Shown one piece after another: positions 10,901-40,900 of a DNA stretch of 64,000 nt; the stretch's first letter is position 1, and each line of letters begins with the position of its first letter. The DNA lies in assembly GCA_914767715.1 (NCBI GenBank), contig OU612068.1, forward strand, positions 32,548,001 through 32,612,000, written 5' to 3'. Under the pieces are notes generated by a model that worked only from the letters and a program-made list of their open reading frames with translations, searched no databases and was not told the origin of the DNA. The stretch comes from Membranipora membranacea. Its lineage: Eukaryota; Bryozoa; Gymnolaemata; Cheilostomatida; Membraniporidae. Both the position numbers and the translations under genes were made by a program.

Positions 10901-11065
10901 CGACAACAAAACAGGTATGATTCGTTTCAGGCAGAGATCATAAAATTAACATACAGAATAGCTAAGCAAGTTGATGTAATATGAGAATACACAAGTGGTG
11001 TAGCTGTTTTTGTTGTTGCAAGAAATCATTGGAGGTTCATGTCTGGTATTGTGGTGCCATCAATC

Positions 11066-11130
11066 AACTTCATTCCATGAAAACATTATTAATTTTGCCT
11101 GATTTAAAATTGTTTTCACGGAATGAAGTT
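11066..11130. repeat. Short inverted-repeat hairpin
   Basis: Arms of about 20 bp (aacttcattccatgaaaaca and its near-perfect complement, one mismatch) flank a loop of about 25 bp. It lies 80 bp before the larger foldback element. Confidence 0.7.
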
Positions 11131-11212
11131 CATATTAATCTCAATCTTTAGGAATAATTAATGTCACCAAAATTCCCTCAATCAAAGCAAAACAGTATTT
11201 CTTACTCTCCCT

Positions 11213-15143: not shown

Positions 15144-18100
15144 GTTGTAACCGTGACCTGGAATCAAAGAAGTGCACTACCAAAAAATGGTACAGTAATT
15201 AGCAGCAAGAAGGGTCCTGTTGGTCTTTTTCTGGCTTACTCAGGCAGACCTATCTGAACTGAGATGTAGGCCTACAGTAGATTTTGTTGATCTGATATAA
15301 AGCTTGAAATAAACCTCTTGGTTCAAATCACACCAACCAATAAACAGTATACGTTGTACAACCAGGGAGAACGTTTGTAAAACCTAAGTGTTCTATCTCG
15401 TACTGCCAGTACCTAATCATCCGGGACTAAACGAGTTTGCACATCAATGTTATGAATCAGCTTGAAAATGGAAAAAAAACAGCTTGATGTAATTTGGAAG
15501 GGTAGTGTATTTCATACTGGGATAGTTGGTGTTAATGTAAAAACCACTGAAATATATTATATGGTTGAGGGGTACAGATATATATTATTATTATACAAGG
15601 ACTATTATTGTATTATCTGACCCTGAGCAAGCGTATGGCTATTCATGCATGGTTGCTGGATTTATATCAATGGTAATAACTGTGACTAGTACACTCTGAA
15701 TGAAGTGACAAGCACACAGTATCATATGGATGAGCCAACTAGGATCTGAGCAGCTGTTTACTCCTTGATCTGAGCGAAGTCCAGAGTGCCATTTTTGATT
15801 GTCAACATTTAGTTTCAAAGTAAACCACAATGAAAACAAATTCAGGACAAGCCTTTCCTAGCCTTACCAATGCCTAGACTAAGTTGACACCTCCCAAAAC
15901 AACTAAAAACTCTGAGGGTTTCTTTGCTATAGCTTTTCCTCCGAATAGTTCCTCTGCATATATAACATAGCTTACACAGGAAATATAGTACAAAGGTGAT
16001 AAGCTGGCTCACTACAAGAATGTACATAGTTTTGATTGGACAATGACGAGCAGTTTAGATTCTGATTGGCTATGACTCTGATTTATTTTAATTGGCTGAA
16101 ATGGGAAAAGGTTGTTTCACTTTTATGCAGAGCATGAGTGAGGAGTGTCAGGATTGCCACCAGTGAGAATGGAATCCTTCCATTTTCCTTGTTGCCACTG
16201 CACTTTTCCAAATTTCAAAATTCCCCATGCCAGGTTTGTTTTTCATCAAGACCTGAAGTATATTTTGATAGTTTAATTCTAAACAAATGATCTAAGTAAT
16301 GATGATTTTTGATGTTCTGACCTTTCTTGCATATATAATGTATGTTTGACTGCCCCCTTAGGTTTTTGTTGTTTTACTGTTGTTTGTTGTTCAAACAAAA
16401 AAACCTCAAAAAGCCAAGGGGGCATTCAAACATTGCCAGAGTCCGAGGTTTTAGAGTAGACCTGTCAATTGCCCTATCCCAACATACCTCACCGACCCAA
16501 CTTACTCCCCCCATATCAGCCTCTGGCCATATCTCCATACTAATTGAGATCACATATCTTCTGCCAAATCTCACAGTGTAATTCGACCCTCTTTTCTTCC
16601 AGCAAAAACACCCTGCACCTACATTATTGTTATGATGTATTCACAGGAAAGCACAGATGAGACCACAGACGTCTTCCACAGATCAACATAAGAAATGTAA
16701 GAAACCCACTGGTTATTTGTGTTCGGTTATTACAAATGCAGGGGCATTAATTAAGCATATAACTATTGGTGGCCAGCCAAACAATGCCCTGACGAGGGGG
16801 GGGGGGCGCTACCCCAGATTTGTATCATACTGCAGGTATCAATATCATGAATTTATTGCAGATTGATGAAGACAAGGCGCAAATTCAGGCGGTGCAGTAA
16901 CAGATATGGTTTTTTATTTTGTTTCACCCAACCAATCATGATGCATGCTGCATTGCGTTATGTCCTGCCAAAGCGTAAAATAACTCCTGGGTCTTGCCCT
17001 ATAGGCTTTTAAATATGGATCTTCACTTCTTATCCTCAACTCTGAGATTTCTTTGCTATCTTATTTTGTCAAAAGATTCCTTGGTATAATGATCCGAAAT
17101 ATCAACAGGTGAAATAAACAGAAATTATCGACCTGAGGCAGCACCTCATTTGCATTCAATGTTGCAATGACTCCATGACAAGATCAGCTTCTCCAAGTAC
17201 TTTGATGTAACTGAGATTATACTGCGCTTCTCATGTGATAATATCTTGGTGGTAAAGCATAGCGACAAATTTATTACTGTAATATTATATACAAAAGCTA
17301 CTTTCAGGATAGGGATCTTATCCCAGTGTGTGAAGAGCATAGCTGACAGGTCTCCCTAGATTAGGTAGGGAGGCTCCCATTTTTAGGGGTTTTTCCACCC
17401 CTCCCTATCTCCCATTTTCCTCCCTTTTTCCAGCTTCATTCACCCAGAAAATTTGGTAAGCAAGGGAAACTTGTTTTTCTCTCTTCACAGTACATATACC
17501 TATGGTATTACTTATAACCATTAATGCTTGTATCTTTACCTAGCCTAACACTATTGATAGGGCTGTCTCTCCTAGTTCCGATAAAGTACAACAATATCAT
17601 TTGTAAAATCAGGTAAAATGACACAATTCATAATTTGAACAAACGAGTACCGAGTTACACTTGCACTCCGGGACGCAGAGTGGTACTCTGGGTTGGGAGT
17701 TTGTCTGCAAAGACCTCCTGATTTCTGGGTCTACTAACTTTTCATGTATGGTGAAGAACGATTATAGATACAATGACCTCTTATGTGAGATTTCTAACCA
17801 ACTCTAGATAATGTATCAACAGCCATCTATTAGAAGTTCAGAAATAACGGGATTGTTGCGATTTAACGGTACGTAACTGCTCAACGTGAAAACAACGCTG
17901 CGCCCAACAATGCCGCTGTCATTACGCCATCTGGTCATTATGTACGCACATTTTAAAACTCGGGAATCTTTTGTTTTGTACTCATTTACATGAGTTGTTT
18001 GTTTGCTGTCCAATTCCAAACAGTGGATCAGTTCGTATTTCTTGATTATGACAGCTGGGTGCAAAGATAAGTCTACATTCCCAGTGAGTAGAGATCTATG

Positions 18101-18448
18101 TTTTGCGATAGATTTAATTGTAATTTGAACTCAACCATGATTGATCTCAACAGATTTCTAAAACATGGTTGTCTAAACAATTTTGTCCATTTTAGTTTTT
18201 CTAATAGTTTATTCTAAACTGAGAAATATACAGACATCGGTTAGACTTTTGAAAGACAGGTAGCAAAAGGTTATGCTCCCTGGCAAGATTTTAGGATGAT
18301 GTCTTTATGATGCATGTAATGTGGCTTGGTTTTATCATGAATCTATGGAAGAAAACCAAACTCACGAAAATCATCCGATCAGAGACCTAAATCATAAGTT
18401 GCCTGTAGAAATGAGCTGAAATATTCTTTTGTTTTTACTTTTTTTCAG
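15144..18448. other. Intergenic region, no gene recognised
   Basis: About 3.3 kb between the divergent phosphatidyltransferase start and the first recognised exon of the + strand unknown gene. Only short open frames occur. It holds the 16341-16436 hairpin and a run of ten G at 16797-16806. The missing first exon(s) and promoter of the downstream gene should lie here, but no convincing start plus donor could be chosen. Confidence 0.5.
16341..16436. repeat. Inverted repeat / hairpin, about 95 bp
   Basis: atgtttgactgccccctt near 16341 pairs with aagggggcattcaaacat ending near 16436 (one mismatch). The inner tracts aggtttttg and caaaaaaacct also pair across a T/A-rich loop. Compatible with a tiny MITE or a structured non-coding RNA precursor; no other evidence was seen. 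Confidence 0.6.
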
Positions 18449-20595
18449 ATCATTACTGCTACCAAACTTATAGAGTGTTTGTTGAGCGACTTCTCTCAGT
18501 TATATTCTATTATTGTAAGTAGCCATAGATGTTCTGTCATACCACAAGTATTCAAATAGGAGCATTTCTGTAGTATATTAATTATTCTCATTATTACAAT
18601 TTATACCAAATCGGTTAGCGCTTGTCATTCACTGCCAGGCGATCGGTGCCGTTGGAGTCGTGGGTTCGAGTCCCACTGGAGGAGCTTTCAAGCCCCCAGC
18701 CTCCTCTGGTATTTTTCTCTCCCATCACTCCCACATTCTTTGTTTAGGTGTATTTTATCAAGGATGTAGAACATCTACTGCTTGTGCAGAAATAGTATAA
18801 CCCCATTCAGAGTTGCGATTCCATCCTTAATTTCCCCATGTTTAGGAAGAAAACAAAGATGTGCTGTATGAGAGCGACATAACTCGAGCTTTTAAGTCTA
18901 GGCAGAGTGTGATGAGAGCTGTTAGAAGGCCGTGGTGTAAGTCTTATAACTGGAGTAGTATCCTATCTCAGGGTCACTCTGGGCAGAGTGGTGAGTATCA
19001 GGAAATCTTGTTAGGATCAAAGCATTTATTTGTGAATCATTTAGATGCAAAATAGAGAGAAAACAATAAATCTATCATGTAATTCATTGTATTCATTTGG
19101 TATCTTTACCTATAGGATGAGATATTGTATTGTTTTCGTGATCTGGCAGGCTGCTAATTGACCTGAAGGATTACCTCTTGAATGGATACCGTGGCCACCA
19201 TTGCATTTACTCATTAAAATAGCAATTAAATTGATATAAGTTCATTCCTGTGTAACTTAGATTTCATCCAGTAATTAATTTTGTTCATGGTTATTTGCAG
19301 ACCATAGTTCTGTGGAATCTCATGATGAACCTGAGGAAGTGAACGTAGCAAATAATAGAAATAGAAGTGACAATCCTCTCAACTCTAAAGGCAAACCCGA
19401 TTATGACCAAGAAAAAACAAAAAGTATTCAGGATGATCAACGTGCTGTGAGTTCTAGTATCTCCTTCTTTTGGGAACCAGAGAAGGATGATGGATCATGT
19501 CCTGGAATGTCGGATTTTCTAAGTGTTAGTAAATCAAAAACTGACAGTGGGCTGTCATACTCCAGTCAGCTAGAGAATGATGAGACAGATGACGATGGTG
19601 AGCATGGTTACTAATATCTCAGAAAATATTTTACATAATGGAATCCTAAAGCCCGAGCTTTTAAATAACTGAAGCCATTAATGCTATCAGACGATTAAGC
19701 TGGGGGTCCTTCAATTAGAATGAGCGATGCTTTACTAAAGCAAATTATCACTATCACATCGCTCAAAATTATCACTCACTTGGTATTTGAATTAAAAAAA
19801 AAAGCTCACTCAGAAAGTATATAGTTCAACCAATGAGTGAGCAATTTCTGAGTGAGACCCTAGCAGGTATCACTCTCACTCATTGAGTGAGGGATCAGAT
19901 AGCAATGTCGACTGTTTTTAAATTGAAACACCCCCCTGGATCAACAGCTCGAATGCAAGAGTGGGTGCGCATTTGATGTTAAAGCAAGAGGAGAACTCTA
20001 TAGAAGACTATCCGGTTGTAGTGGTAATATTGCTCTAATCTTGCTGTTTTGTTTACTCCCTACAGCATCAGAACTCATTTCACACATCAGGAATCAGTGC
20101 AAGACAAACAATCATCCCCAAGAGTCTCTCCCTTCCTCAAATCTACTGGAACTAAAAAACAAGACAGAAGACTTCATTTATGACATACCAGTAGAAAGAG
20201 ATGTGAAATATTCAGATATTAGTGATGATAAAATGATTGAAGATATTATGACCAGAGATAACTCTGATTTAATATGCCTATCTGACCCATGTGATCATAG
20301 CTTTGACATGCCTATGCCGCCATGGGGTTACCCTGAACCAAATTATATATCCATGAATGAAATTGCAAGGAAGTCTAATATCTACAACCTACACTCTGTC
20401 TGTGGTTCAGTTACAAGAAAAACTAAGCCTGCAATTTCTAAGAGAGTGCTCAATAAAGTTGGTTTTAATGTGACTGGTGGCCTGTCTGTTAAAAAAACTA
20501 CTACGACTACGACTAACACTCCTACCATCTTACCTTCTCTGATGCCTCGATGCTTGTCACAGTACAATGTAGGAAAGGCATTGGAACAGAAATGA
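18449..20595 (+). CDS. Unrecognised acidic protein, 5' incomplete
   Basis: Exons 18449-18514, 18846-18990, 19301-19597 and 20066-20595 join in phase into 345 codons and end at TGA 20593-20595. The start is not resolved; the first listed exon begins with an open frame after a good acceptor (tttttttcag). The N-terminal part looks helical (TATKLIECLLSDFSQLYS). The middle is Ser/Asp/Glu-rich, with segments such as SSISFFWEPEKDDG. The last exon has an unusual Pro/aromatic motif (MPMPPWGYPEPNYIS), a threonine run and a basic C-terminal part. I recognise no domain. Splice borders are strong and phases agree, so it is a real gene, but its function is unknown. It lies about 620 bp upstream of the ankyrin-kinase-KEN gene on the same strand. 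Confidence 0.7.
18610..18680 (+). repeat. tRNA-like fragment with perfect T-arm (SINE head or tRNA relic)
   Basis: atcggttagcgc resembles a tRNA D-loop/A box. About 45 bp on, gtgggttcgagtcccac forms a complete 5-bp T stem around the invariant TTCGAGT loop (B box). The 5' acceptor strand does not pair with the 3' side and no good anticodon stem is seen, so this is a tRNA-derived relic and not a working tRNA. It lies in an intron of the unknown gene. Confidence 0.55.
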
Positions 20596-21215: not shown

Positions 21216-24200
21216 ATGCGATGTCCCTGTAAGCCTTCTTGCCAGGGACCTTGCGCTGTCGAAATATTAAAGACAGCTATGTTTTCCCAACCAAAACGGC
21301 CTGAGGGGCCTCCTAAACAACTGAGTAGCAGCAATGTGGACGCTTTCACTACTATTCAGCATTTGGAAATGCTATTCAAAGAACATCGTGCTTCTGATAT
21401 CCTGAGGAGTGGTTTCAATGATGCTTTGGTAAGCCCACCTGGTCCTTTTTTTTCACAACAACGACCTTATTATTGTTATCAGCTGGTGTCATCAGTCTGA
21501 AAATCTAAGAAGTTTGACTCACATTATCTGCATTCTATTTCATCATTTCTATCTCATACTCGTCCCGGCCTCTCCTGAGCGATACTAGTTGAGATATAAA
21601 CTAAATTAATTTGATATATATGAGCGCGCCTACAGACTAATGTGAGATATTTGTTATATTTATCCAATTATTCGTTTTATAGTTGTTATCCAGATCCTTG
21701 CTGGCCTGTTCACCTCCCTAAAAACCAAAGTTTGGGTAAACACTCTTTTATCATTGTAGCAATCCTTATACATAAGAATGGACATTGAATCTTTGTAATC
21801 TATTATAGGTTTGCATTCCACCGTTGCTACTTGTGAGCTCCGTAGGATACAATGAAGGTGTGATAAAACTGGTCGCTGCAGGAGCAAATGTCAATCTTCA
21901 AAACCCAAAAGTAAGATATGAAATGTAAATGCATTATCAGCCATGTTTCATAAAACTATTGAATAGAGAGCTATCGCTTAACAGGATGTGAATCTTTAGA
22001 ACCATTGAGGTATAGTATTATACATATTAGTGCTGACAAACGATATCTTCAAACTTTATATTAGGATTATGCCAGCAACATAACTAGGAATTTTAAAGAA
22101 TGCATAGAAATCAAAATGTTTCATAGCCGCATCATTACTTAATTCACTCACAATAACATTGGCACCAACAATTTCCTTTTATATCTATCAAGAGGACAGT
22201 AACATATCTAGGTATAGTAGAAAACCCTGGAAATGGAGTTTGACTAGCTTATCAGTGCGTATAATAACACATCAGAACCACAGACGAGGACTAAAATAAT
22301 ATTAAAAATTTCATCCGATGTTGACATTTTGAATTTGTTTGTTCATATTTTCACCACCTTCAATCAGCCAATTTCCTCACATAGATCTTACAAACACTTC
22401 TGCTATATATTTATTCAGGATGGAAATACTCCGTTGATCCTGGCTACCAAAGGAAAGCATGTAGAAACGATGAACATTCTACTTACACACAGCGCTAATG
22501 TCAGCATCTCAAATCAGGTAACAAAGAATCCCCATCACCCCTGTGTTCCTCTAAAATGTCCCACTGCCACTGATTTGTAAATGGGTGTTAATATTGTCAT
22601 TCAAAATGACCACATATGTTGGGTTCACCCACCTGCATTGAGCATTGACATGACATCTCTGTATTTATATTTGATAGGTGTTCAATGCCCGCATGTCGCA
22701 TTGAACGCAAGAACATAAAACTGAAGAAGTTCTTGGCCTTAATATTATTCTGATAACCTCTATCACTATAAACTGGTCACTTACGCTGATATAAACTGCA
22801 TAATCTCTCTTCATTAGGAAGGTAATAATGCTTTTATGATAGCTGTGACAACCGGATCCCCAGCTCCTGTCAATCTACTCTGGCAGCATCGCAGATCCTT
22901 CAATATCGACTTCAGGAACAAGGTCAGCATCAGCTCAATATAACAAATAAATTATAGTGTATACACACATTGACACAACAATCCTTTGAGGATCAGCTGA
23001 GGCTGTTATATTAACGTTTTGATGACATGCAAAGGGCTCTGCGCTCTGAGGTTACTGCTGATCGATCAGCTGAGGCTGGTCTCTGAATATATGATCACAG
23101 ACCTTAGAGGCTGTAACAGCTCGATGTGCTTTGACCTTTGACCTCTATGCCTCAGATGAGCAGACTGAGATGAATAGCATTCATGATCAGCTCTTTTAAT
23201 CAGCGACCCCATATCTATAAGACAGCTACCAAACATGAGTAATAGAATCTCCCTTAATTTAAATTTCAATTTATGTCAATTAGTTTGATTTGTTTCATGA
23301 TCGTGTCCATTCTTACCTTAGCTTGGATACTCTGCTCTCTTACTTGCTGCTGAGAGATGCTGGGAATCTTGTATAAACATGCTGATTACTATCGGAGCTA
23401 ACAAGAACCTGCTCACAGAACACAGTGATTCGGCGTTGGCTATCTCCACAAAAGCTAACGATAGAAAATCTGTCAACAGACTTTTGAACAATAACATCAG
23501 GATTACTACTGAGAACAAGGTTTGTATTTGTTGGTAAATCTGTTACCAGTAATCTGTCTTGGCTTCCAACCAGCAGGACAAAAAGCAAAATGCACTTCCA
23601 TTTTAAACATTTCTAAATCAGAGGCCAACATAAACAACAGTACAACATCACTTTTGAATGGACTCCATATCAAATTCAGCAGAACACTATGGAGTTGTGA
23701 TAGACATTATGGCCATTTTGAGGTAGGTAGAGGTTTCACTTTAAGGATGTACTATATTGTTCTCTCTATCCAGTCGTGTGAGATGCCTCTCTGCATAGCA
23801 GTTACTCAGCACAAGTCTGAAATATTTGAACTTATTGCCAAAAGAATGGATTCAACTGAGAGACAATATTATGTGGCAGTGAGTATCTTATTCGAAGTTT
23901 TTCCTCAACATGAATATCAATCTTATTTATGCCTACATCTTATTTATGCCTATATCTTATTTCATGCCTTTATCTTATTCCATGCCTATATCTTATTTTT
24001 GTCTAAGGAGCAGGAAATGCGATGAGTGGATGATTGATGAATTGATTGATTGCTGAATTGATCTATGGATTGATTGATTAATTGATTCATCACCGGACAC
24101 AATTGAATATTTTTCATTATAATTATATATTATCGTATATTATTTCATATTATATCATTATCGTGTCATATGCATTTATGAGTTTTATGTATATAAAGAT

Positions 24201-27200
24201 CTGAATATTCATACTACAGAAAAAGTTGGAGCTGTTAAAGCGAAAGTCATTCCCTGGTTACAACACAGATGTGGATTACTACATCGCCTGCTTATTTCCT
24301 GTACTACATAAGATCCTCTGGCACGATCTATTCAAAGGCATTGTTCAGCAGAAGAATTTTGCGGTAGCTCTGATTAGTATGTTCTGTCGTCATATGAATA
24401 ATGATGAGCTGGTGCAGAGATCAGCTGAGCTGCTCACTCTCAGTATGCATGATGGGAAGAGAGTGGAGGAGACTGTCATTACGGACTTCATCACTAAACA
24501 GGTATGCCTGTCTGTCCGTTTGATAATACTGAGCGCACTGATTAAACCTATCTAACCATTCATCGGCCCTTAAAAACGACACCTTTGTACCATTCAAACT
24601 GATCACCATTGAAGTGTTAAGTCTATTGGCTCAATGATTGTAATCTCTTTCAAAGCAAGATTTTAGAACATCCTTTCGGCAATTGCACAAACCAGCACCA
24701 CAAATTAACAATTTCTGCCTTTTTGATTAGTGCCCTGAGATAATGCTAAAGTCTCTGCAGTTTTACACGTCCACTGCTAAACACAAACAGTCAGCTACTA
24801 TCCTCTCTCTGATGTTACCGATCTTCTTCTCCTGTACACAAGATAAGGGCCTAGAGTGGCTTCGTGATAACTGGTACGCCGTCATCTCATTTATACACAT
24901 GTATGAGAAAACCTATCTACACATGCATGTGAGTATACAACTCTTTGGTCTAGGTGTCATATATTACTGTGGAAACATTGGTCATGCGCCCAATTAAATT
25001 CAGGTGTTGGCCTCACACTCTGGGAAACAATTCAGTTCAAATATGCAGAGGGACGAGTAGCCACCCCTTGCCTTAATAAACCTTTTGTGGAGAAGATGTT
25101 TACCCATATCTAATAATGTCAAACAAAATACCACTCATAAATAACCTTTTAGCTTTAGGTTAGGTAGTTTTCGTTCATTTCCAGTTTTAAATTTCTGTGC
25201 GTAGATCAAATAAATCAATCGGGACATGCATGATCTCTGTATAGTATTTTTATGTGATGTGTTGATATTCATAGTATGATGAGAACAGGCCAATGGTTGA
25301 CAGAGTTTGGAGATCTTTCAAGAAGAAGTTTGAGCTTATTCAGCAAGAAAAAGCAGATCTAGCTTGTGCTGAACTACTCCACACAGAAGCTCTGGAGAAA
25401 GCTAAGGTCAGTCTAGCAGTTACTATGTGAACTAGATGAAGAGCGTGTCAGGTATTTATATGTATCACACGGGTCTAGACCTGAGGAACTACTATTAGTT
25501 GAATTATGGCTGATCGGCCAGAGAAAGTGTTGGATTTTATTATTTATATTTACTATTAATAGCTGCCTTTGGTTTATCAAGGTTGAGAAAAAAGAGAAGA
25601 AGAAGTCTAAGAAACAAAAGAAGAGAGCCTCTGAAGGTGAAGGTTAATAATAAACTTTATCAGTTCAGATTCTCTTGGCTCTCTCTAACTCACCATAATG
25701 AAAAATCTAAAAGCTGTGGTACGGTCGCCTTCATTTTGAATAATATTCACAACTGCCATCACCACAACAAACAGTCTGTGTTTTATTTTGCAGCGGAAGA
25801 AACTGTGGTGGAAAGTACACCACATCAACAAGATCTCCTGGTGGAGAAAGACAGTAAAGAAGAAGTACCTCATACTAAGCCAATACAGACAAGGGTGTCA
25901 TCATGTGAGATTACATTGAAGCGCTTTTAACGAATAATACTTCGTGTCGCGTATATATATATTCTTTTCTATTTGGCAATGCAATGCTTTGAATTCTGAA
26001 GCAGAGTTTCACATGCTTGCGGTAAAAAGCTGAGACCCATGGTGACTTTATAATGACATTACTACTCAGTTGATGGTGGATGGATATATGACGAGATATT
26101 TGTATTTTTAGCTGGGAATTCTTTGGTTGTGGTAGGGCCTTGCTTAGCAGTGACAGTTGATGATGGGTGTGTGACAGATGCTGCTACATGTGGTGGTATT
26201 GTCGTGACAGCTGTAGATGATTTAGCGGATATCGCTGATGATGAAGATGAGGCGGATGATGACATGAAGTTAGCTAAACATAAAAAGAAACGAAGGAAGA
26301 GAAAAAAAGGGAAGGGGGATAAGTATGAGCTCGGTGTACCGGTAAACATGCTCAACGAGGACGAGGCAAGTCTAATCGCTATGTATCATGATATGAATTT
26401 ATATGATATAATATAAATTTATATATGTATATATATTATTTATTTAATATAATTCATATATATCAGTGGCTATGTATCTTGGGTTGTTAAATTAGTAAAC
26501 AAATTCAATTTAATGGTTCGAGTAAAGCTCTAGCTACACGAAACGATTTTTACATCGATTTGTGGTCACGAGTGGTTAATCGGTGGATTTGCACGAGTGA
26601 TTACTCGTTTTAAGTGGACATTGAACTTGTTGGTCTTTTGCCCGAGTGATCTGGACGATCCTCTATGCTGATTGGTTGTTGATTGCTTGCTTCAATAATT
26701 ACACGGTTAAACACGTCATCTATCAAATCGTGACAGGCTATCAAAATGGAGGAGTTGATAATATCTGTAGTAAAATCACATCCTCCTATTCATGATAAAA
26801 AAGACCATAACTACAAAGATAGGAGTGGTGCTGTAGTGAAAATATGGAAGGTAATAGCTGTATCACTTGGAAATGGAAGCTGTCCTGACATGACATCCAT
26901 AGTATAGCATAGGAAAATCAATTTTACAGAAGACTGAAATTTTATTTGGTGAAGATTCAAAGTGACAAAGACCCGGATTTAATATGACATCTATATCCGG
27001 TCATTTGTTAACACGCCCATTAAATATCATTGGTCAATCGATTGAACTGAGGGAGTTCATTGGTCAATCTAGGCACCTGATTTATGACCCCACTATGACT
27101 CACTAGACCATCGTGTACTAACTCATAGGCCTGTATAGCAGTGTGGGATCGGCTGAGCATGTCTAGACATGCCATCGGCCTGTGATTACATCGTCTCGTG

Positions 27201-30200
27201 TAGCTACACCATAAGTAGTACTTGCGGTGTTTTTTTGTTAGGTTGCTTTCTATATCATCTCAGATAGTCTATACTCTATATCATAGATTTCATGTGAGAA
27301 TAAATAATATTGCAGGTGCGAGTTGCCTTCTCGTATGAGATGACTGGGGGTGCTGCAGCAGCACCGTTTGTAGCCGACTTGAGTGGTAAAGAGGAAGATA
27401 ACTTCGAGACAGTGATGAGTAAAAAGTCACTAAAACAGAGAAAGCGTCTAATATCAGATCCGCAAAGATTGGCCAATGGTGCTGAGTCTCTTGATGATAC
27501 TGATAGCAATAAGTAAGAGATGATTGAGTGATTCTTTCAAAAGGAAAATCAATGAATTTATGCAAACCCTGTCACAAAACCGGCTGAAGCTTGTTCAGAT
27601 TTTAATATATACAACCCAATCCAACTCAAATCATTTTAGGATACACAACGTTTACATAATTTTTCAGGTCTAATCAGTCCAGTAAGTCTGTATCACCGAG
27701 CCCTGTGAGAGCTGTCAGAGGACCAGATGTCTTACCTGATGTGTGCGCGACCTCAGCTGCTGTCAGTAACGCAACTGCTGACTTCCCAATTCCAAGTGGT
27801 AACAATCGAACAACAACCAACGATCAGACGTTAGAGATCACTGAAGTTCTACCCCAACCCCTGGCAACAAATGACTATCTCGTTCCTGTATGTTATTTCA
27901 CGATACTTTTAATAAGATAACTCTCCACTTTCTGAAGGAATCAATTTGCATTTTCTAGAGGTTGATCTTACATGAATCAGCCAAGCTTGCATTTCTTAAT
28001 TTGCGACGTACATACTTACAATGTAATCAAGTTTGGTCATTGTGATCGTGTGTATTGTTTTCTACAGCCTCCTGCAAACTTTGATAACACAGAGCCACCA
28101 ATTGCTCAGATGGCTGCGATTGTGCTCGAAGAACCTGAGAGCTCACCACCTTCTGATTCGCCTAATGACAGATCCCAGAGATTGAAAACCGCTTCCAACT
28201 TTTTACAAGAACTCGACCCACAGCCGGCAGTGAGTGAGGAGCCTCCCTATCACACAGATCAGGCACAGGTTACTGTCACTGAAGGAGCACCTGTGGATAG
28301 TTGCCTTGGGTTTAGCATACCATCTCTCCACACAACTACAGGTGCACAGCAGTTACCACCCTGCTCTCACTTCTCTCAAGCTCCATCTGTCAGCTGGGCT
28401 GATCTCCTCAAACACAAGGGTAATAATGCTTGTCGTCTATTTATGTCATACCTTGTAGCATTTTTTCATCGTGTCATGTGTGACATGTCGTTGATATGGT
28501 AATTTTTGACAGATATATATCTGTATGCACTACAATACTGTATATTCGATTTGGTTTCATAATATTCAAATTTGTTGTGCTTATTGGATGCACAGCATCT
28601 TGTATCAGAAAGTAAGAAAGCATTTTGATAATTGTCTGCTTATCTGTTTGTGTTTGCCTTTAGATGCTGAGTTTCCGAAGTTAGGTGCCAAAGTTACATG
28701 TAATCCTACAGCTTTCACCTGGGCATATAACACAAAGAACTCATCTTTAGTTCAGCCGCTATGCCTGCAGCAGTCTGCTCCAGATTCCACTGAATCAAGC
28801 TACAGCTCTAGAAAGGTAAACAGTTGTACTATACTATATTATAATGGTATGAAATAGTATATGAATTTAGGCCTGATTCAGCAGTTTTTCTACCAAACAA
28901 TGATCTGTAAATAGAAACATGTGAATTTTCGTCAGATTGAGGAATATAGGAAATGACCCATTTTCTTTCTGTAGGACAAGGAGGGATTCACACTAAGTGA
29001 GTTCATATTGCCTGAGGTTGCTCGTAAGATTAACAGCGCTCAAGGTGAGGGGCTGGTGTATAACGCCTCGGCTTCAGATCCTCAGAGTACAGACTCAGAT
29101 ATTGGGCTACTCTCTCAGAATGATTTGCTCGGAGAATCTGTAGCAGAAGGAATATCTGCTGTCGGTGGTAATCAAGACTCATCTGTACAGTCCCAGCAAG
29201 GTAAGATCTCACCATGAAATTCAAGTGCATTACATTTTTTGCCTAATGCTGACATTCTTTTACACGCTGACAGCGCTAATACCTTTTGTAATCAGTAATG
29301 GTATGTTTTCTCTCGCGTATTTTAAGCGAGTTGCAGTTTGAATCACGGAAGATCAAACCAGGCAGTTATTATGGAGGATACAGCTCCCGATCTCTCTAAT
29401 CTAACTAAAAGTGGTACTAAGGCTAGCGGAGACAACACGACATCTACCCAACAGCATACCTTCTCTCCTACTGATAGGGACTACCTTATGCATTTTATGG
29501 ATGAGGAGTTTCCTATTGGAAAGGTAGATACAACTATGTAACTTGTGAATTAATATTGTTGACTGCTTGCTGTTCTTAATGCTAATTGCTATCTACTGTT
29601 TTAGGGCTTGGTATAGTTCTCCCCACAGCTGCAAGAGCGAGTTTGCGGCATACACTATAATTCATTCCATTCTTCTATGTAGTTTTTTTGCCTACTCCTG
29701 ATCCTGAACCCTAACTATCAATTTTACAGATAAGTATTTCCCTTTGTGGTGTTTCAGGTTCCACTCTTAGATCCCCGGTACACAAATTTCCTGACAGATA
29801 TCAGAGTACCTGATATAAAGCCGAGCCCGCTAGATGATATCGGCTTCCTGTCTAACTCCTCAGACGATGATGTAGACACACAGCAGACTGTAGCTGGTAA
29901 TCAACAAATACCTGGTATGAAGCCTCCTGCTCCCACACGTCTCGCTCCAAAGGTGAGTGCGTACCTCCCTTATCCAAGCCACTAAACTATCATAGAAAAT
30001 CTTAAGATAATTGAGGATTATCAGTAGATGGAAGAAACTCCATTGTGAGTGTCCTATTGCCTTTGGCTCGAGTATCAGCAGTAAACATAATAGCTTATTG
30101 TATTACTGTATATTTAAAACACACTGCCAGTTTCCTATGGTATCAGTCAGGTAATTAAGTGATATGACATTGTGATATTTTCAGACAATCATGCAGAACC

Positions 30201-33200
30201 CTGCTACCAATCAGAATATAATAAATCAGAACAAGTATGAGCCTCAGACAGCAGCTATGACAGCTGAGCCTCCTGGACAGAGAAATATGGATATAATGAC
30301 TACTCTCTACCAGTATCATAACGCTGTTCTCATGCAGCAAAGGTAAGACAAACAATCATTGAAAGGTCATCTTCTTTGGTTATTTTCTCCTCTTGGGACA
30401 ATACTACATGCCCCTAACCTTATTCAAAGGCGTAACTTGTTGTAGATCACTGTGTGATTGATAGAATGTTTTTTGAACAGTATGAGCAGTTATTTCAACT
30501 AATGGCTTAACTTCTGAATGTTATCAGGGCTAACAACATGCCACCAGCCGGAGCACCAAACAACCACACTGCAGCTGCCATGACTAATTTCTGGATGCCT
30601 TACAACCAGCTGATGTACAGAAATCAGCAGCAGACAATAGCATATAACCATCAGACTATGTTCGGTAATCCAAATCATCAGAGCACTGCAGGTAAGAACA
30701 CGCAGCATTATGCAACACGTTTTCTTTTATTTATTTTTTATTTATTTATATACAGTTTATTTCGCACTGTTGCAAACTTTGTTTCTCTCCCCCGGAAATA
30801 ATTATACATCAGTGCTTTTTAATAACAGTGATGAATGCAAAACAGACACCTTGCAGATTTATTCCAGTACATTGCTGCTGATGACTATAATAGCTTTGAA
30901 GAGATACTTCTTTGCTTCGCACAATCCTATTCTTGGTTTGTTGACAGCTGCCACAGGTTACAGACCAGGTACGCTCAGACCACAGCAGCCTGCTAACTAC
31001 TTCCAGCAGCAGCCGAATCCTATCTCATCTACAGCTGGTAAAATATACACTCAGCCTCCCAAACCTCAGATCTCACAACAATACCAGATACCACCCAAAC
31101 ACGATATACCTTCTCCAACTACCGCAGTCAACAACATGGCTCTCATCTGGCAGGACTCAATGCCTGCTAAGCGGCACGACTTGCTCACATGGCAGTTCCA
31201 AGCCATGCCTAAAGATAAACTAGTCATCAAGGGAAATATTGTGCTATGTGTGGAAAACAAATTCATCCTGGGTAAAAGGTAGGTACAATAACATAGTTAT
31301 TTGGTGCCTTTGCATTTTATATTTCATGTTCAATGGTTGTCTAAGTTTTTTGAGCTCTCTTCAGGTCTATTCAAACTTAAATTATATTTTATGTTTTTAG
31401 CACGACATATAGCTGTGATGTGCTGGTCCTACTTGGTATGGTCGGTAAGGTACCAGCTGCGGTGAAGAGATTACCGATGGCTTTATTTGCTCCACTAAAG
31501 GACAGTCTGTATAAACTTCTACAGCCAAAGTTTCATTATGAGTATCTCGTCAGATACCTGGTAAGTGATGTAGTGATCGATAATACAGGTAGTAGAAGAT
31601 CCTCCTGCCACCGGCCTGTGGCAGAATTGATCAATTTGCCTGTTTTTGGTGTTGCGCCTCCTTGTGCCGACAGCAACTTAACAGTAGAATGGAAGCCACC
31701 CGAAATGCAGGCAAATAAATATGATCCAACTTGATCTAAGTTGGGCTGTCAAATACTTAAATTTGTGTGAATATGAAAGAATCATATCGATATCATTTCG
31801 ATTGGCTCATGATTAACGCTGCGTGGCGGTAAATAACTTTTGATTGTGACTTTCTTTGTTTCTCATATGTGATGGTATGACCAGTATGATTTTATTTTTA
31901 CAGGACATTGCAGAGGATGATAATTATGGGTACATAGCCCAGGAGTTGTGTGATTTTACACTTGATGAATACATCCATCTTCTTATAAAGAAGAAAGGTC
32001 TGAACCCTGCAGTTGATGTCTCTGTACTATTCAGACTTCTATACCAGATGTTCAGAGGGCTTCAGGTTAGCGCTTGCTATGTCTGAATTGTTGAAAGAGG
32101 GAACTGTCATCTTATTTCAATTTTAAAATCTAAAAAATAAATAGTATCAGTTTAACCAAAGAACCAGTCTCCGTGAAAAACTCATCAGACGTGTCTCCCA
32201 CAATAATAATGTAGATATCACTTTTGCTTGATTTCGTAGAATACATGAAAATACTCCAAAACGCCAAGAATTCAAATTTAATCAATTAAAATTCAGAAGC
32301 TGAACTTCTTTTGCAGATGCTGCACTTTAGATGCTCGATGTTACACAGGAATATGAAACCCAGTAATATTCTTATAGACGCAGCGGGTAAACTAAAACTA
32401 AGCGACTATGGCCTCACACATGTCACATCAGAGGGTGAGCTTTATCAACATATGCTGCCAAATAAAACAGCACTAGACCATCAGTCCTAGAGCAACACTA
32501 TCATTTACGCAAAATATCTGTCTTATTAACTATTCTTTCGTTTCATTTATATAAATAGTGATGAATAACAGTACAGTTGTACAGAGTCTTTTATATGCAA
32601 TGAGCTCAGTTTTATAGCAGAGTGGTCCATTGTTAATTGAATCTGAGACACGTACATGAAATGATGTTTATTGTGTTACATCATCCTTACCATAAGGTAC
32701 AGGAACAACCCGACACAACCAACAAAACTTCTAGCATTGTCGGTTTTTTTTCTAGGAATGACAGTATTCTACTCTAACAAGATAGGAGATAACTGCTGGA
32801 GGCCTCGAGAGTGTGTCAGTAATACACAGCAGTGGATGGCTGGATCTATATCTATGGCTCATTACACCATGCACTCCGATATACAGGTTAGATTAGTCTG
32901 AAGTTTGAGATGTTTAACACACATAATAAAATCCTCCACAGGTTTTACAATGGCTGACACATCGAGGCACATGCAACAATGTCTCAATAGCAGGACTAAC
33001 ACATGTGTTGAAGAGTGAATATTGTGTTATGGAAATTCAAAAGATTCAAACTACCAACCTTATTGGAATTTTTATATCTTTAGGTGGCAGGTATGCTAGC
33101 ACACTACATCCTAACAGCTGGTCAGCACCCATATGGAGACAATGCCTTTGATATTGAGGTGAATATAGCTGGTGGCTGGCTTAAAATGAAGGAGATAAAC

Positions 33201-34627
33201 AATGAAGCTAATCACCTTCTGTGGCTGATGATGTCTAAGGAATCTAGAGATCGGCCGGATATACACAATGTGCTCAGGTTATTACATGACATGACATGAC
33301 ATATTACATGTGACACAAAAATCCAATAATGTCAGAAAATCACTGCTGACTTTGAATAAGTTTATACATGAATTAATCAAAGCTATTGGTCTGTCAGAGT
33401 CATACAAGATTAATACTGAACAACTATTAGTAATTTTGTTTCGATATGTGATGGAAATGATCAAAGTAGGCCTCATAATCCAAATTGGCTGGATAGAGTT
33501 AACATTGCCTCCATCCCTTAGGGGAGCAGGGCCTGGTGGGATCATAATTATGATCTGTACAGTTTGGGTCGAGTTACCTTCCCATGTATATTGGTAAAGC
33601 AACTCCAACTATGACTTCTATTTTACATAGTGTCAATTATTTAATTCCAATAATATTGTGCACATTACTTGTTTTAGACATCCCTATTTCTGGTCAGAGA
33701 AAAGGCGGTTTGAGATGTTGGTAGCGGTTGGATGTGAGTTGGTTGAGATGGCAAAGACTTACTGTTATAAGAATATCACAACAGAAAAGCTTAATAATAT
33801 CAGCTGCCATGTCGTTAGCAGGGATTGGGTATGTGCCTCCGGACAACTACATGTTCTACCAATTCTTTGTAACCAAGTTATCTTATTGATGTCCAATAGG
33901 CTATCCTGAATGAACCTAGCAAGACAAAATGTCACAAACATCGGGGTCAATGATGGTCATTATTATCCTGTTAGTCCATTACAGGCTTTTCTCATAGAAC
34001 GTTTCAACAGCGTTTTCATCCATCTTCTTAATTGCAATATATTTTAGTGTAAAGCAGTTGAGACAAAGTTACTGGATGAGATGGATGTTGATAGAAGTTC
34101 AGCTACTACAGTGTGTGATCTACTGATGTTCTTCTTCCACCTACACCAAACCTACAACCGTCTGTAAGTACAATGACCGTGTTTGAATGGCTCACTGTGA
34201 ACTGTCAAATCATATGCCTTACTGAATGCGGAATTAAAAAGTCGTGTAATTCCAGTCGGATATCAACTCAAAACTTATCTGCAGGTCCAACAGGCGTCAC
34301 AATATAGCTCTCGTTGTTTTCTCATGACCCTCTTTCACTTTGGCATATCCTATTTCTACTCAGCTCTAATAATTGGCTTCTCGTCTATCACACAAATCTT
34401 ATGATTGAAGGACACTGAAACTATGTTGCTACCTTCACTTCTAACTACTTTGTACTTCACACAATGAACGATATGATTATTACAGATCTATACATGTGAG
34501 GTCAGGACTAGGGCAGCCTCATCTCTACTTTCTCAGCAGATTTCCTCATCTCTTCATATCTGTGTACAAAATAGTGAGAGTCAGTGACTGGATCAACAAA
34601 CCAGCCCTGAAGCAGTACCTGCAATGA
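21216..34627 (+). CDS. Ankyrin repeat - pseudokinase - KEN domain protein (RNase L/IRE1-like), 30 exons
   Basis: Exons: 21216-21428, 21809-21910, 22419-22517, 22818-22922, 23322-23519, 23774-23878, 24220-24501, 24731-24928, 25275-25406, 25582-25642, 25794-25904, 26112-26365, 27316-27512, 27668-27887, 28068-28419, 28664-28815, 28975-29200, 29327-29523, 29758-29952, 30185-30342, 30528-30691, 30948-31278, 31401-31560, 31904-32065, 32317-32434, 32756-32886, 33084-33277, 33678-33828, 34048-34163, 34486-34627. They join without a stop into 1,741 aa. Order: ankyrin repeats (about 72-274; DGNTPLILA, GANVNLQN); helical region (275-434); Ser/Pro/Gln-rich linker with an acidic then Lys/Arg-rich block; kinase (about 1315-1600) with AVK lysine and DYG, but HRN for HRD and no full glycine loop; KEN domain (about 1606-1741; HPYFW, SRFPHL). 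Ankyrin-kinase-KEN is RNase L order. KEN positions of IRE1 R905/N906/H910 read F/H/T, so RNase activity is doubtful. An alternative start lies at 21279. Confidence 0.88.
26530..27209. mobile_element. Inverted-repeat DNA transposon remnant carrying a MADF fragment
   Basis: The left end ctagctacacgaaacgat and the right end (reverse complement gtagctacacgagacgat) match at 16 of 18 positions and bound about 680 bp inside one intron. An internal open frame at 26746-26907 resembles the start of a MADF DNA-binding domain. MADF proteins accompany PIF/Harbinger-type transposons, so a non-autonomous or decayed member of that group is likely. No transposase core and no clean target duplication were seen. 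Confidence 0.6.
26746..26907 (+). pseudogene. Truncated MADF-domain open frame inside the intronic element
   Basis: 53 codons starting MEELIISVVKSHPPIHD, with DHNYKDR and KIWKVIA further on. This matches the MADF pattern of an N-terminal helix (LI..V..HP.L.D), a Y.DR turn and a W..IA helix. It stops before the domain is complete. It is not in the frame of the host exons and is enclosed by the inverted repeats, so it belongs to the mobile element. Confidence 0.55.
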
Positions 34628-34967: not shown

Positions 34968-37900
34968 TCAAACTTCCGAGCTTTCAATGTCATGTTGGAT
35001 AGATTGCGTCGGCTCAATGTCCTGCTTGTCTGAGCTCAAATTATCGATTTCCTCCTCTCCAATTTTCCCGTGCTCTGGAGACCCAACATCAGTGACCTCT
35101 GCCTGTAGCATTGTGACATCATCACCTCTTGCATCTTCTAGTTCGCCATCAGCTATGACCTTGACATCATCTTCTGCTGGTGTAGCTTGGTCTGGTTCCA
35201 CTTGTAGTTCCTCCTGTACTTCCACAGTTTGGCTTGCTTCAAGGATGTCAGGTTTGGTTGCTTGCTCAGCACTCTCAGTAACTTCATGACTGTTGTTATC
35301 TTCTAGCGCCTTTATTGAGCTGCTGTTATCGGCTTCACCCTCCATGTTTATGTCATCATTTTCATCTGCTCCGTCTGGCGTCTCTGGATAAACTATTATC
35401 TGTATCCTCTCTTCGGGTGTTGATGCTGTTCCAGGATTATTATCTTCATTCTCAGGTATCATTTCTGGATGCTGGTTATCTGTCTCAGATGCTGTTGATC
35501 TGGGATTATCATCCTCTGCAGTCAGTGATGATGTGGAGTTCAGGCTATTTAGGATGCTTTTCCTTGCTTTCTTCTTTGCCGCTGAGTCGTTACTTTTTGC
35601 CAAAACCTTTTTAAAAGTTGTCTCGATCTTACTCGGTATTTGGGCATAACTCTGCTTCATCGATTTGAATCGCCTGAAGCTAGCTCTAATTTCCTTCTTA
35701 AGCTCAATGACTCTCCTTGTAGCCACCTGAAAAAAGAAAATGGCATAATGATGCATAATAGATACATAAACCACAAATAAGCATGGGAAGGGAAATTTAA
35801 ATCATTCTACCAATTGATGGACAAGTTGTATTTGACAGAGAGCAGTTTGGTTGAAGTTGACTGGGCAGCAGCTCTTGTCTCGATGCATAGCAAAGGGAGT
35901 GCTGCTGATATTAGAACAAGTTTGATCCAGTTTGCCTTCATACTAGTTGCTCCCCTGCGGCATGACCAGTGGAGGGGGAGCAACTCCGAATGCAGGCAAA
36001 TGGACCAAACTTGGCCTATGCTGTTATCAGGTGTTCGCATCGCTGGGTTGCATATATGACACATGGATATGCAGACGTATTTGTATGTCACACTCACAGG
36101 GGTGGTGGGTTCTGGTGTTGGAGTTCTCCGTCCTAGTGAGCAGTCATCCAGGCCAAGTCTTAAATCTGGTGTAAATCGGTCATTATATGTAGTACCAATA
36201 GAAGCTCTATCTAATAGGTCGGGGTCACTAACTGAGAAATTCAGACTATCTCCATCCGACAGATCATCAAAATATTCAGCTGGAACAAGAATTCAATACA
36301 GTCTATCCACAATCAACTGAACTTTGAATTCATCAGTGTTAAATTGATGGAATCATTTGAAAACAGAGAAAGAAGGAAATACAATCCCATATCCAGACAT
36401 GCTAGCATTAGTTCATTCATCGGGGTGAGTAAAATATCAAGGGTTTGATCTTGGCTACACATTGCCCGATTGAAATTCGTACCTGGCCTTGTTTCTACAA
36501 AGTTGTCTAAGGGGAATACACTTTATTATTGTTTCATCAATACTGCTGAATATTTCATGACAGATTGAGAGGGAAATGTTTTTTCCCTCAGGTCTACAAA
36601 ATAACTGGTTGTGATGTCAATTTATGAATTAAAGATTTTGATGGAGGACACAAAAGAACCTGCTGTCACTCACCTTTTAGCTCTTCAATATTTGTTGACA
36701 TCTGTTCTTCCTCTGTTTCCACTTTCTCTTCATTCACTATCAGAACTGTGATTGGTCTTTCCTCCGGTCTAAATCAAATTACATCACCTTTAATCTATCT
36801 ACCAGCACCACATGGAAATGTATATTGTTAGTTTTTGCCAATGCAGTGTAGATTTCGCTCACATCGAACCCCGCCCGAATACCGTACATAAGGGTGCTCA
36901 TGTCATGTAAGCGCTTCTATTACATAAGATTTCAATGTTATAACACTTACAGCATAATATGACTTTTGACAAACTTCCAGTCTGCGATTACAAGAAGAAG
37001 CCATATAATCCCTGTAAGACAGTATAGAGCACCTGCTGCTACACATCCCCATGTCAGAACCATAACCATCAGCTCATCAGGGTGAACTAACATCTCTGAC
37101 ACCATATAACTCTCAAAATCTACAAGACAAGGATGAGTTAAACTCATATACCTAAGAATAGAGCAATTTTAAACTGTTTTACTTATTGCATTGAAAAGAG
37201 AAAAAAATCAACTGGTAGGCAACTACAACACCATATCTCATTGTGATTATTGTCTTTCCTTGGCAATCACAGGTCGTCTTCTTGAATACGTTTTTTCGGA
37301 CAACAATATAATCTGTTGAAACAAGATGTGGTTACTACAATAAATCTTTTTGAAAACTGAATGTTCACAATAGATGCACAATACAAAGTACGTACTCACC
37401 AATACATCCATTTGGTGCTCCTATCCACTCCAGTGTCTCCAGGCTACAGTAAGCACCCTTAGCATACGTACCATCAGCTGGGAATATGTGACCCTCTATA
37501 CAGGAGTATGTGACTCTGGTACCAGCCAGTAGTGAGTTAGTACTCCGCACTGAGTTGTTTACATGAGGAGGTAGTGGTCCGGGGCAGTATGCAGCTAAGA
37601 TAGGTATTAGGGTCATGTCACAAAATTGCAATCAGCATATCCATTACCATGATAAACAATTTATTTTTATCAATTTACAAATCAACATGGATTGGAAAAA
37701 CAAGTTTTTACAACAGCTTGTCACTGTTACACACCTGGCCGTAGCTCCATACCTCAAAGTCAGCCTAGGAGCAAAAATTATGATATACATCGAAATCTTG
37801 TGATTGAAAATGACCTACACAATTTAAATATATTTAGCATTTGTTATGGGTTCAAGATTACATACGAACTTAGAGCTCACTGTCATTGGTAAGAAGGGAT

Positions 37901-40900
37901 GTGTAGCCAAAAGACTTAAGCAAGAGATACGGGGATTTTTTGGTCCCTGGTAAAATCAAGTATCAAAATCAGCTTTTCTCATGGCTTGACAGCATGTACT
38001 GGATATAAACTGAGATATTTGCACTCAACAGCAATATATACATGAGTCATACGTTCACATGTCGCTGAGTCACCCGCCCAGCTGCCGGTCTCAGTACAGG
38101 TCATAACCTTAGAGAAGTTCCTCTCTGTGTTGTTAAGTCTGTATCCATCATCACAGGTCACTGTGACTATGTCTGCATAACTTGCTTCACTACCCGACAC
38201 CTTGGAGTGAGGGATAAAGTAGGCATGGCACTTTACAGCTAAAATGAAAAATTAATTAGAGAGTTAATCAGATCAGACTTTATGATAGATTTCTCAGCTA
38301 CAGACATGTCAAAAGATGGCAACCCACATAGCCAAGTTTTGCAAAATAGACGTCGCCACAATTCTTTTCTCTTCACGTCATCCCGACAAGATCAAATACA
38401 TTACTAACCAATAGCAGTGAAAATCAGCAGACTCATTGATAATGATGATGGGTAACCATTAAATCTCATAATATTGAATGGGTATTCCAGAATGGTACTT
38501 TCTCTATTCTTCCCTTACTCATACCTTCACATCTGTCCTTTTGAGGCTCCCATTTGCCACTTGCCGAGCATACAAGGACATTGGTGGTCCTACCGTCAGG
38601 GAATGCAAAGCCTGTATCGCATGTGAAGGTATCTGTTGCCCCGTACTCATCTACGCCTTGCGCAGATGTGGCATTTGGCATTCCAGGCAGAGGGCATCTC
38701 AGTGCTACAAGATGTCAAACAATTTTTTCCTGGTATGTACTCAAATATGGCCTGGTGTAAGAAGACTAATTTGGGTGCTAGGCTATAGGTAACTTTATAT
38801 CTTACTCTCTGGTAGAAGGTTTTACAAATATATTTCTGATATACTTTCAGTTTGATATTAGGCTCACCCTCGCAATGCTGTGGCATGAAAGACCACTTTC
38901 TATTCTCCAGACATTGTATCGTCTTGATTTTTGCTCCGTCTGGGAATATGTAACCATCCTGACATGTATACTTTATCTTACTACCATAGTATGTCGCGTC
39001 TCTGTCCATATAGGAATTGTTAACCAGCATATCAGGGGCGTTCACCAATGGGCACACAGTTCCTGCAAAATAATGTGAAAGGCAATATCACAGAATACAA
39101 ACTTTGGATTTTTTATCTCACTCGTGAATGAATGGTCGTATTATGATAGGCAGAGAATACACAACTTGTTCCACACAACGATATTATGTTTGTACTACAT
39201 ACGCTCACAGTTTCTAGACCGCGTCCAGGTGCCAGTATTAGAACAGGTGGAGTTGAAGAGAGAAGTACCATCAGGATGAGTGTATCTATCTCTACACTTG
39301 TAGTAGACTGTCGTACCCAGCGACACCGGGAGGCGTGTTATCTGGTCTGGTGGGCTCAGGTCTGCATAAGCATATACCGGAGGTGCTCCACATGCTGAAG
39401 ACAAAACAAAGCATTCAGTTAAACAGTTGGTTAAAAATTTTGGTTGTTTAAAATTGCAAGTTTTCGTCTCTGTCCGAGGACTGAGAAATAGCCTTAGGGC
39501 GCGGCCACCATGTTCGGCGCCAAGTTGCTCTCAGTTTTTAGGCAGGTCGGAGCACACCTTGGGCAATGTGCCCAGTAGTCAGTAGAATGCAGCGGGTCTC
39601 AAACCCAGGACCTCCAACACTTGTGTGTTTGAGGTCAGACGCTCTATCCAACTGAGAATAGATGGATGGACAGACATATAGACAGTTAGACAAAAACACA
39701 GATAGACGGACGAATAGAGGATATCAATATATAGAATAAGAGACATTAGGTCAAATTAGTATCAAAAGGTGAATTCCGGCCCCTGAAAATACCATATATA
39801 GGTAAAAGGCCAATCATTTTATAATAATATAGTTTAGTCCCCAGTACCAATCCTTGCCATGTGTGTCGTATTATACATAATGTGTATACAGACTTTATAA
39901 AATCACCATCACCAGGCAAAATTAAAAAAATTCTGGTATTGAAGTTATTTACATGCAGATTTTTCGCAGGCATATGGCATAAGGTCATCACAACTCCTGT
40001 CCTTCCAAACTCCAAAAGCAGAGCTCCTCGCACACTCAAATAACTCTGGGTAACCTGTCGCAAAGTTATCATATTCTGGGTCAGATCCGTCATGCCATAA
40101 CCAGCTACCATTAACCTTGTGATATCCTATCCACAAATCTCTACCGTATGTGTCATATCTACAGCAATAATATCAGCGATAATGTTCTAGTTTCATCATT
40201 TGGGGTTATCTTGTTATGCACTATGGTAAGGTAACTACCAATGTGAAGAATTCATTGCAACAATTTGTGTGCATATTTATGTCATTGAAAGGCATAAGAC
40301 ATAATTTGTTGACACTTACAGCGATTTGAAGACTATTGACTTTTCCAAAATGTTATTCACTGTAGCTAGATAACTGTCTTTATATTCACAAGATGTCATG
40401 GCCGCTCCATATCTGAGTCCTCTCGATGAAGAGTCAGATAGGTAATAACAGCTGCCGAGAAACCTGATCCAACCATTAGGGCAATAAGACTCTGTAACAT
40501 GACAACCACATTATAATAATCAAACTAAGGTCTGTCAAGGACAATCCGTTATATAAATTTTGACAATAATTAGCGTCTTACATTTACCGGCGAGCTCATG
40601 CTTGAACTCCATCGCATATATGAAGCTTTTTCAATACCAGAGCAGTGAAGGCTAAGTTTTACCCACCATCGCAGCCACTTATAGGAGGGGCAGCATCCCA
40701 TTCCCCGCTTGGTTCACAAGTTACTTGTTTGGTGATTTCACCTCCTGGGAATAGCTTGTTACCGTCGCATTCATACACTATACTTTGCCCAACCTCAGAT
40801 TGATAATTGACAGCAGATCCTTGGATAAGTACATTATCAACTCTTGGCTGAGCACATCTTATAGCTGTAATATCAGGTCATAAATGGAAAAACAATTTTG

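Follow-up and report, generated by a model that had tools for sequence, protein, structure and literature searches.

An ankyrin-kinase-KEN protein of the bryozoan Membranipora membranacea with the domain order of RNase L, replaced catalytic residues, and relatives in a bivalve and in insects

In RNase L, a protein of about 740 amino acids (aa), ankyrin repeats precede a kinase and a KEN domain, and this order is commonly regarded as an antiviral innovation of vertebrates. A gene of the bryozoan Membranipora membranacea specifies the same order and raises the question whether its product works as RNase L does. The window analysed, i.e., the whole stretch of 64,000 nucleotides under study, is located at C4:32548001-32612000 of the M. 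membranacea genome, C4 presumably being chromosome 4, and the gene occupies positions 21216 to 34627 of the window on the forward strand. Sequence comparison places its product in a clade with proteins from the bivalve Solemya and from insects, with which it shares a layout of ankyrin repeats, helical region, long linker, kinase and KEN domain or KEN remnant; the RNase residues of the KEN domain are lost and the Asp of the kinase HRD motif is Asn. We consider it probable, with some reserve, that this product is the bryozoan representative of a protostome ankyrin-helical-linker-pseudokinase-pseudoKEN family and acts as a regulator or scaffold and not as an enzyme.

The gene model consists of 30 GT-AG exons, with the ATG at 21216 and the TGA at 34625-34627 (+ strand, as for all features of this gene), which join in phase into a protein of 1,723 aa with the terminal stop alone. 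An initial annotation, made from the sequence alone, had likewise described 30 exons in phase without internal stop over 21216-34627, and it was right in proposing one protein, but it gave this protein 1,741 aa, a difference that reflects one or more splice choices. Pfam profiles for Ank_2 (2.7e-18), Pkinase (1.9e-23) and Ribonuc_2-5A/KEN (2.5e-11) match the translation, in agreement with the order of an ankyrin N-terminus and a kinase plus KEN C-terminus read earlier. About six ankyrin repeats, recognised by Pfam and by BLAST to the ankyrins of relatives, lie within aa 72-274 (exons 2-6, 21809..23878). They are followed by a helical region (aa 275-478, exons 7-9, 24220..25406), for which no Pfam match passes the cut-off and which is identified by alignment and by a hidden Markov model (HMM) built without the window protein, and then by a disorder-rich linker (approximately aa 479-1305, exons 10-22, 25582..31278), identified by its composition and open frame; both of these additional parts had been noticed before. 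The 3′ end of exon 22 codes for kinase and not for linker, the kinase fold continues through exons 23-27 (31401..33277), and the KEN domain (aa 1588-1723) is encoded by exons 28-30 (33678..34627). The closest solved structure to the kinase-KEN unit is human IRE1 (6xdb, 7.3e-29). IRE1 has a lumenal sensor and a membrane helix; as noted earlier, no transmembrane-like segment is found in the bryozoan protein by 19-residue Kyte-Doolittle hydropathy (top mean 1.5).

According to the available part of PMC9472280, H910 of IRE1 is the general base and Y892 the general acid of the RNase reaction, and R905 and N906 hold the phosphate. All four residues are replaced in the bryozoan protein: Y892 by Ser (34096..34098; this column stands beside gaps in the alignment and is the least sure of the four), R905 by Phe, N906 by His, and H910 by Thr, the latter three within the segment FHLHQT (34135..34152), which takes the place of RNKKHH in IRE1. 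Since the four sites all lie in exon 29 and are flanked by aligning residues (DLL before, Tyr after), a splice error is unlikely. In the kinase, alignment gives HRN (32344..32352) for HRD, with Asn at the place of the catalytic-base Asp, and DYG (32404..32412) for DFG with the Asp retained; the Lys codon of the AVK motif (31465..31467), a column which we take to be that of IRE1 K599, is retained as well. The IRE1 encoded in this same genome, which serves as a control, keeps all four RNase residues and the HRD Asp. At the HRD Asp position, Asn is found in all 11 family rows of the alignment (the window included) and Asp in all 17 others. Similarly, the full R-N-H triad occurs in none of the 11 family rows, three of which (P0003, P0021, and P0028) are without residues at R905/N906, vs. 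14 of the 17 others, the exceptions being two Glandiceps proteins and P0009. In this count the human RNase L row carries the letters expected of the native protein, and with those of the solved chain it becomes 13 of 17: human RNase L chain 4oau has Asn at the active-site His, a substitution that was presumably engineered, and His is present in pig RNase L. Two solved human IRE1 chains (6xdb and 8uvl) also carry HRN, and the human IRE1 row was taken from HRD chains. With the KEN active site and the catalytic Asp of the kinase gone, the bryozoan protein is not expected to act as RNase L does; we infer that it neither phosphorylates nor cuts RNA, and because both sites have lost needed residues it is probably a regulator or scaffold. 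Nucleotide binding may survive in it, judging from the aligned residues, and would not be a family constant, since Solemya has lost both the AVK Lys and the DYG Asp and carries Arg and His in their places.

Homologs were sought with the kinase-KEN end of the window protein and with the kinase end of its planthopper relative, the latter query returning 22 proteins. These searches are built on shared short exact words and may miss whole phyla, so that a phylum missing from the results is not evidence of absence; P0013-P0020 from the window query, and P0029 (Daphnia, tandem kinases), P0032, and P0034-P0041 from the planthopper query, were left out. Ankyrins, a long middle part and a kinase occur in planthoppers, a cockroach, stick insects, a weevil, and P0022, the named members of the family being P0003 (Nilaparvata LOC111061653), P0024 (Periplaneta), P0026 (Timema), P0027 (Anthonomus), and P0031 (Solemya ScPMuIL_001003). 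Ankyrins and kinase stand together in eight of the nine insect-type proteins, the ninth, P0023 (a second cockroach protein), being listed with the kinase alone, and the Solemya protein unites ankyrins, kinase and a recognisable KEN (Pfam KEN 1e-11). These bivalve and insect sequences with both halves support the view that a single gene underlies the two halves of the bryozoan model. When an HMM of the helical region was built from Solemya and four insects, residues 262-480 of the window protein scored 25.0 bits and the whole protein 17.2 bits, the best of 5,000 shuffles reaching 10.9; by this comparison the helical region is a genuine common feature of the family. The ankyrin block of the window protein, compared by BLAST among the collected proteins, matches P0021 (1.3e-16), P0022 (2.5e-16), and P0031 (2.2e-14) better than the ankyrins of the Actinia protein P0002 (1.1e-7), with the exception of the family member P0025, whose value (1.1e-7) only equals that of P0002. 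Conservation does not extend to the linker, which cannot be aligned to the linkers of four relatives: its scores were equalled or exceeded by 137 (Solemya), 19 (Periplaneta), 14 (Timema), and 82 (Anthonomus) of 200 block shuffles. An EFPxL-like motif occurs in the linkers of three of the ten family proteins examined, those of the window, Solemya, and Periplaneta.

Phylogenetic analysis of the kinase-KEN unit together with RNase L and IRE1, as the initial annotation had proposed for the KEN domain, puts the window protein in a clade of its own kind. The first tree comprises kinase plus KEN in 22 rows and omits P0003, in which the KEN is cut off, as well as P0011, P0021, P0023, P0025, and P0028; in it the window protein, Solemya, three named insects, and P0022 (six of the 22 rows) form a clade with support of 98/94, within which window and Solemya pair at 91/89. 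The second tree, of the kinase only and with the HRD-Asp column removed, takes in the rows omitted from the first (28 rows) and contains an 11-row family clade (98/93), in which the window and Solemya (93/85) are separated from the nine insect-type rows (100/100). This split follows species and is as expected for one gene inherited from the protostome ancestor, and orthology across bryozoan, clam, and insects is the best reading of these sequences, with the caution that Solemya and the weevil are flagged as long branches in the second tree and that the stem of RNase L, represented by only two sequences, is long in either tree. When the window protein is constrained to group with RNase L, 25.6 log units are lost and the approximately unbiased test rejects the grouping (p-AU 0.0027); with IRE1 the loss is 40.1 (p-AU 0.00026), also rejected. 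These two constraints were set beforehand. Two others were set after seeing the tree: uniting all ankyrin-bearing groups costs 16.8 (p-AU 0.011), and uniting the whole family with RNase L costs 7.0 and is barely rejected (p-AU 0.047), so that the family as a whole may still be distantly related to RNase L. The earlier suggestion of an independent fusion or a lineage related to the RNase L ancestor thus holds as far as a separate clade is concerned, but the bryozoan protein is not a lone fusion, as it belongs to a family with a shared layout, and a special kinship of it with RNase L is contradicted by the constrained trees. An IRE1 paralog is rejected by the same tests, and an RNase L ortholog by the tests together with the lost active site.

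How a protein of this kind might work can be proposed by analogy. Dimerisation through the kinase fold is what juxtaposes two KEN domains in IRE1 and in RNase L. The kinase-KEN unit of the family described here would, as in these two proteins, retain its fold and act as a module for dimerisation or docking; with the residues of catalysis gone and a fold that can still be recognised in the bryozoan and clam proteins, a dimerising dock is the economical reading. Binding of a protein partner would fall to the ankyrin and helical platform, which would thereby choose the partners of the dock, the flexible linker would tether this head to the kinase-KEN end, and the output would consist in scaffolding or regulation of the partner without catalysis. 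That KEN is needed less is suggested by the insects, whose KEN domains have diverged further or, in the protein predictions, are cut short. A proposal that HEPN domains without catalysis bind RNA can be found in the accessible text of PMC3710099, and on that ground binding of RNA without cutting is an alternative. A wider idea, which we hold to be unlikely though worth stating, is that protostomes possess an old counterpart to RNase L and IRE1 that lacks catalysis, in which an ankyrin-helical sensor is joined to a pseudokinase-pseudoKEN unit that either binds RNA and leaves it uncut or tunes active KEN nucleases such as IRE1. If true, this would be the pseudo-enzyme arm of a stress or antiviral RNA-decay system.

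Other explanations assign the protein an activity or a different partner. A bryozoan RNase L, with ankyrins that bind 2′,5′-oligoadenylate (2-5A), a pseudokinase that dimerises and a KEN that cuts RNA, would account for the identical domain order and for a kinase that is likewise weakened in RNase L (HQD for HRD and DFD for DFG), and the narrow margin by which a union of the entire family and RNase L is rejected speaks for it as well. However, it is highly improbable in view of an active site that reads F-H-T instead of R-N-H and of the rejected grouping of the window protein with RNase L. Also, hairpin positions of the W60/F126 type, which in RNase L belong to ankyrin repeats 2 and 4, hold no aromatic pair, the residues across the repeats being I, N, N, Y, D, and E, in a comparison made by repeat register and not by structure, with the RNase L letters confirmed from its sequence; a role of F126 in 2-5A binding is presumed here. 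W60, K89, E131, and R155 of RNase L are dealt with in the available part of PMC5927464. A search of the genome for OAS1_C (PF10421) gave no match, but a control search found nothing either, so that this result carries little weight and an absence of OAS from the genome is not shown. Alternatively, the protein might be an active endoribonuclease with a rearranged site, using for example a histidine of FHLHQT. The two histidines in this altered loop, and the His that Solemya has at the H910 column, are compatible with such a nuclease, but all four catalytic columns of IRE1 are replaced and the complete triad is absent from every family row, while KEN activity, as far as the available text of PMC3710099 goes, needs the His and the Arg; we regard it as a rather poor candidate. 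Somewhat easier to entertain, albeit still doubtful, is a dominant-negative partner of IRE1, whose kinase-KEN unit would heterodimerise with IRE1 and lower its output. The nearest solved structures are those of IRE1 and an intact IRE1 is present in the same genome, but the window protein has no membrane segment by hydropathy and the family and IRE1 stand well apart in the trees.

Two further explanations concern the gene model itself. The linker is long and unconserved, and local gene-finder runs began at 24394, within the helical part, as might be the case if the model joined two neighbouring genes at the linker. A start at 24394, however, keeps the linker with the kinase half and so does not place a break in the linker, the proteins of Solemya and insects unite both halves, and the joined frame is the top-scoring frame in every linker exon (10-22); a junction of two genes is therefore very unlikely. 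Over these linker exons (2,564 nt) there are no in-frame stops vs. 41 and 85 in the other two frames, and over all 30 exons the true frame has one stop, the last codon, vs. 93 and 164. The true frame has the best coding score in every exon except exon 3 (29 of 30), and GC content is 0.447 in exons vs. 0.351 in introns. A TAA stands in frame two codons 5′ of the ATG at 21216, and polyadenylation-type signals are located at 34824 and 34865, ahead of the predicted end of a convergent gene at 34968. A decaying pseudogene in M. membranacea would fit the loss of catalytic residues and the low coding scores of several N-terminal exons and of exon 28, but 30 open exons, the stop-free linker, and comparable losses among the relatives leave hardly any room for it.

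Several points weigh against a catalytically dead regulator or scaffold with the layout given here. The 30-exon model is based on an interpretation of splice sites and on homology, and the automatic gene finder alone did not yield it: one run extended to 62318, far downstream, three local settings all began at 24394 and lacked the ankyrin exons, and a run over the whole window spliced an upstream gene onto the ankyrin-kinase-KEN gene. Splice sites are weak at the acceptors of exons 9, 18, and 29 and at the donor of exon 27. The KEN remnant of the insects is recognised solely through alignment, Pfam giving no KEN in P0024 or P0027 and the precomputed lists of all nine insect-type rows containing none. 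The triads of the family read Y/N/H in Solemya, R/A/D in Periplaneta, R/V/D in Timema, and K/E/S in Anthonomus; Solemya thus retains the Asn and His, and four insect rows retain the Arg, which indicates that the decay of the active site differed among lineages. Judging from these residues, weak or altered activity is conceivable in some lineages, and HRN kinases might have residual activity. Hydropathy peaks over 19 residues are higher in Solemya (2.06), Periplaneta (1.77), and Anthonomus (1.70) than in the window protein, so that membrane contact within the family is possible. Finally, dimerisation is argued from analogy alone, and with an unconserved linker its role as a tether is a guess.

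The genome searched comprises 339,339,785 bases in 18 contigs. A kinase-KEN query finds nothing above 38.2 bits beyond the locus of the window itself, and the unit appears to be single-copy on this basis. A profile search of the contigs for KEN gives two matches, both inside the IRE1 gene; the KEN of the window gene, which is split over three exons, escaped this search, so that KENs divided in this way elsewhere may have gone unnoticed. With P0007 as the query, kinases are matched and the IRE1 locus is hit once, with no further KEN among the best candidates scored. The same genome has a compact Hox cluster at C1:21407689-21468413, in which a single query recovers five homeodomains, one of them preceding KLTGP, a peptide that we take to be a lophotrochozoan mark, and one more Hox-like homeodomain at C2:9374027. 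Within the window, the convergent gene mentioned above (34968-43076, - strand) is predicted to encode a C-type lectin domain (Pfam, 4e-5), six sushi stretches and a long low-complexity tail, and its end lies about 340 bases from the stop of the ankyrin-kinase-KEN gene. A second predicted protein (43762-58199, - strand) has sushi repeats and a C-type lectin-like stretch, judged by eye, and the two are possibly a tandem pair of lectin-sushi receptors. On the other side, 799-14594 (- strand) codes for an NGP1/GNL2-type nucleolar GTPase (Pfam NGP1NT, 6e-17), which the automatic model merges with preceding pieces that by eye resemble a CDP-alcohol phosphatidyltransferase, e.g., phosphatidylinositol synthase, the piece scanned having no Pfam match. 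The predicted protein directly upstream (18048-20595, + strand) has no Pfam match and its frame closes with a stop, past which the whole-window run of the gene finder spliced into the ankyrin-kinase-KEN gene.

KEN fused to a kinase with ankyrin repeats is listed for some eukaryotes, with the active site conserved in 95%, in the accessible part of a HEPN survey (PMC3710099), so that the architecture class is already known; for the dead family with its helical region, no description was found in the open-licence literature, in searches made without the insect gene names. What the bryozoan, the clam, and several insects add is the order of RNase L in a separate clade in which catalytic residues have been lost. 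The occurrence of ankyrins and KEN in one protein is by itself not evidence for a 2-5A system, and a conserved kinase-RNase with both sites dead offers a natural test of the role of KEN without cutting.

Compared with known systems, the insect and bivalve proteins are most like the window protein, with ankyrins, helical region, long linker, a kinase with HRN or HGN, and KEN or its remnant, although they differ in the pattern of KEN decay and in linkers that cannot be aligned. RNase L (human 4oau, pig 4o1o) shares the ankyrin N-terminus, altered kinase motifs, and KEN C-terminus, but it has neither helical region nor long linker, keeps an intact R-N-H and 2-5A-binding residues, and occupies another position in the tree. 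IRE1 shares the kinase-KEN unit and is the best solved match, whereas its kinase and RNase residues are intact and it forms a separate clade, the window protein having an ankyrin N-terminus and no transmembrane-like segment. The Actinia-type proteins (P0002 from Actinia, and P0033) also unite ankyrins, kinase, and KEN, but they have more ankyrins, an intact HRD and R-N-H, and belong to another clade nearer IRE1; they are active-looking analogues of RNase L outside the vertebrates. RNase L homologs are among the genes listed for the poly(I:C) response of Nematostella in the available part of PMC8476169, and these are perhaps of the anemone type like P0002. In a survey of OAS, as far as its accessible text extends, OAS was present but no RNase L was found in sponges and the other invertebrates searched (PMC6307210). 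The GT4-conflict-kinase-KEN proteins of Glandiceps (P0001 and P0030) and P0004-P0012 resemble the window protein in an SDIQVAGM-type kinase and a KEN, but have other N-termini and an intact HRD, and R-N-H is intact in eight of the nine proteins P0004-P0012 (P0009 being R-K-H) and not in the two Glandiceps rows. The Pfam accessions ahead of kinase-KEN in P0005, P0008, and P0009 are presumably tetratricopeptide repeats (TPR). KEN units appear to have been joined to many different front ends, and the dead protostome clade together with the active-looking type of a sea anemone suggests repeated fusion or reuse of the kinase-KEN unit.

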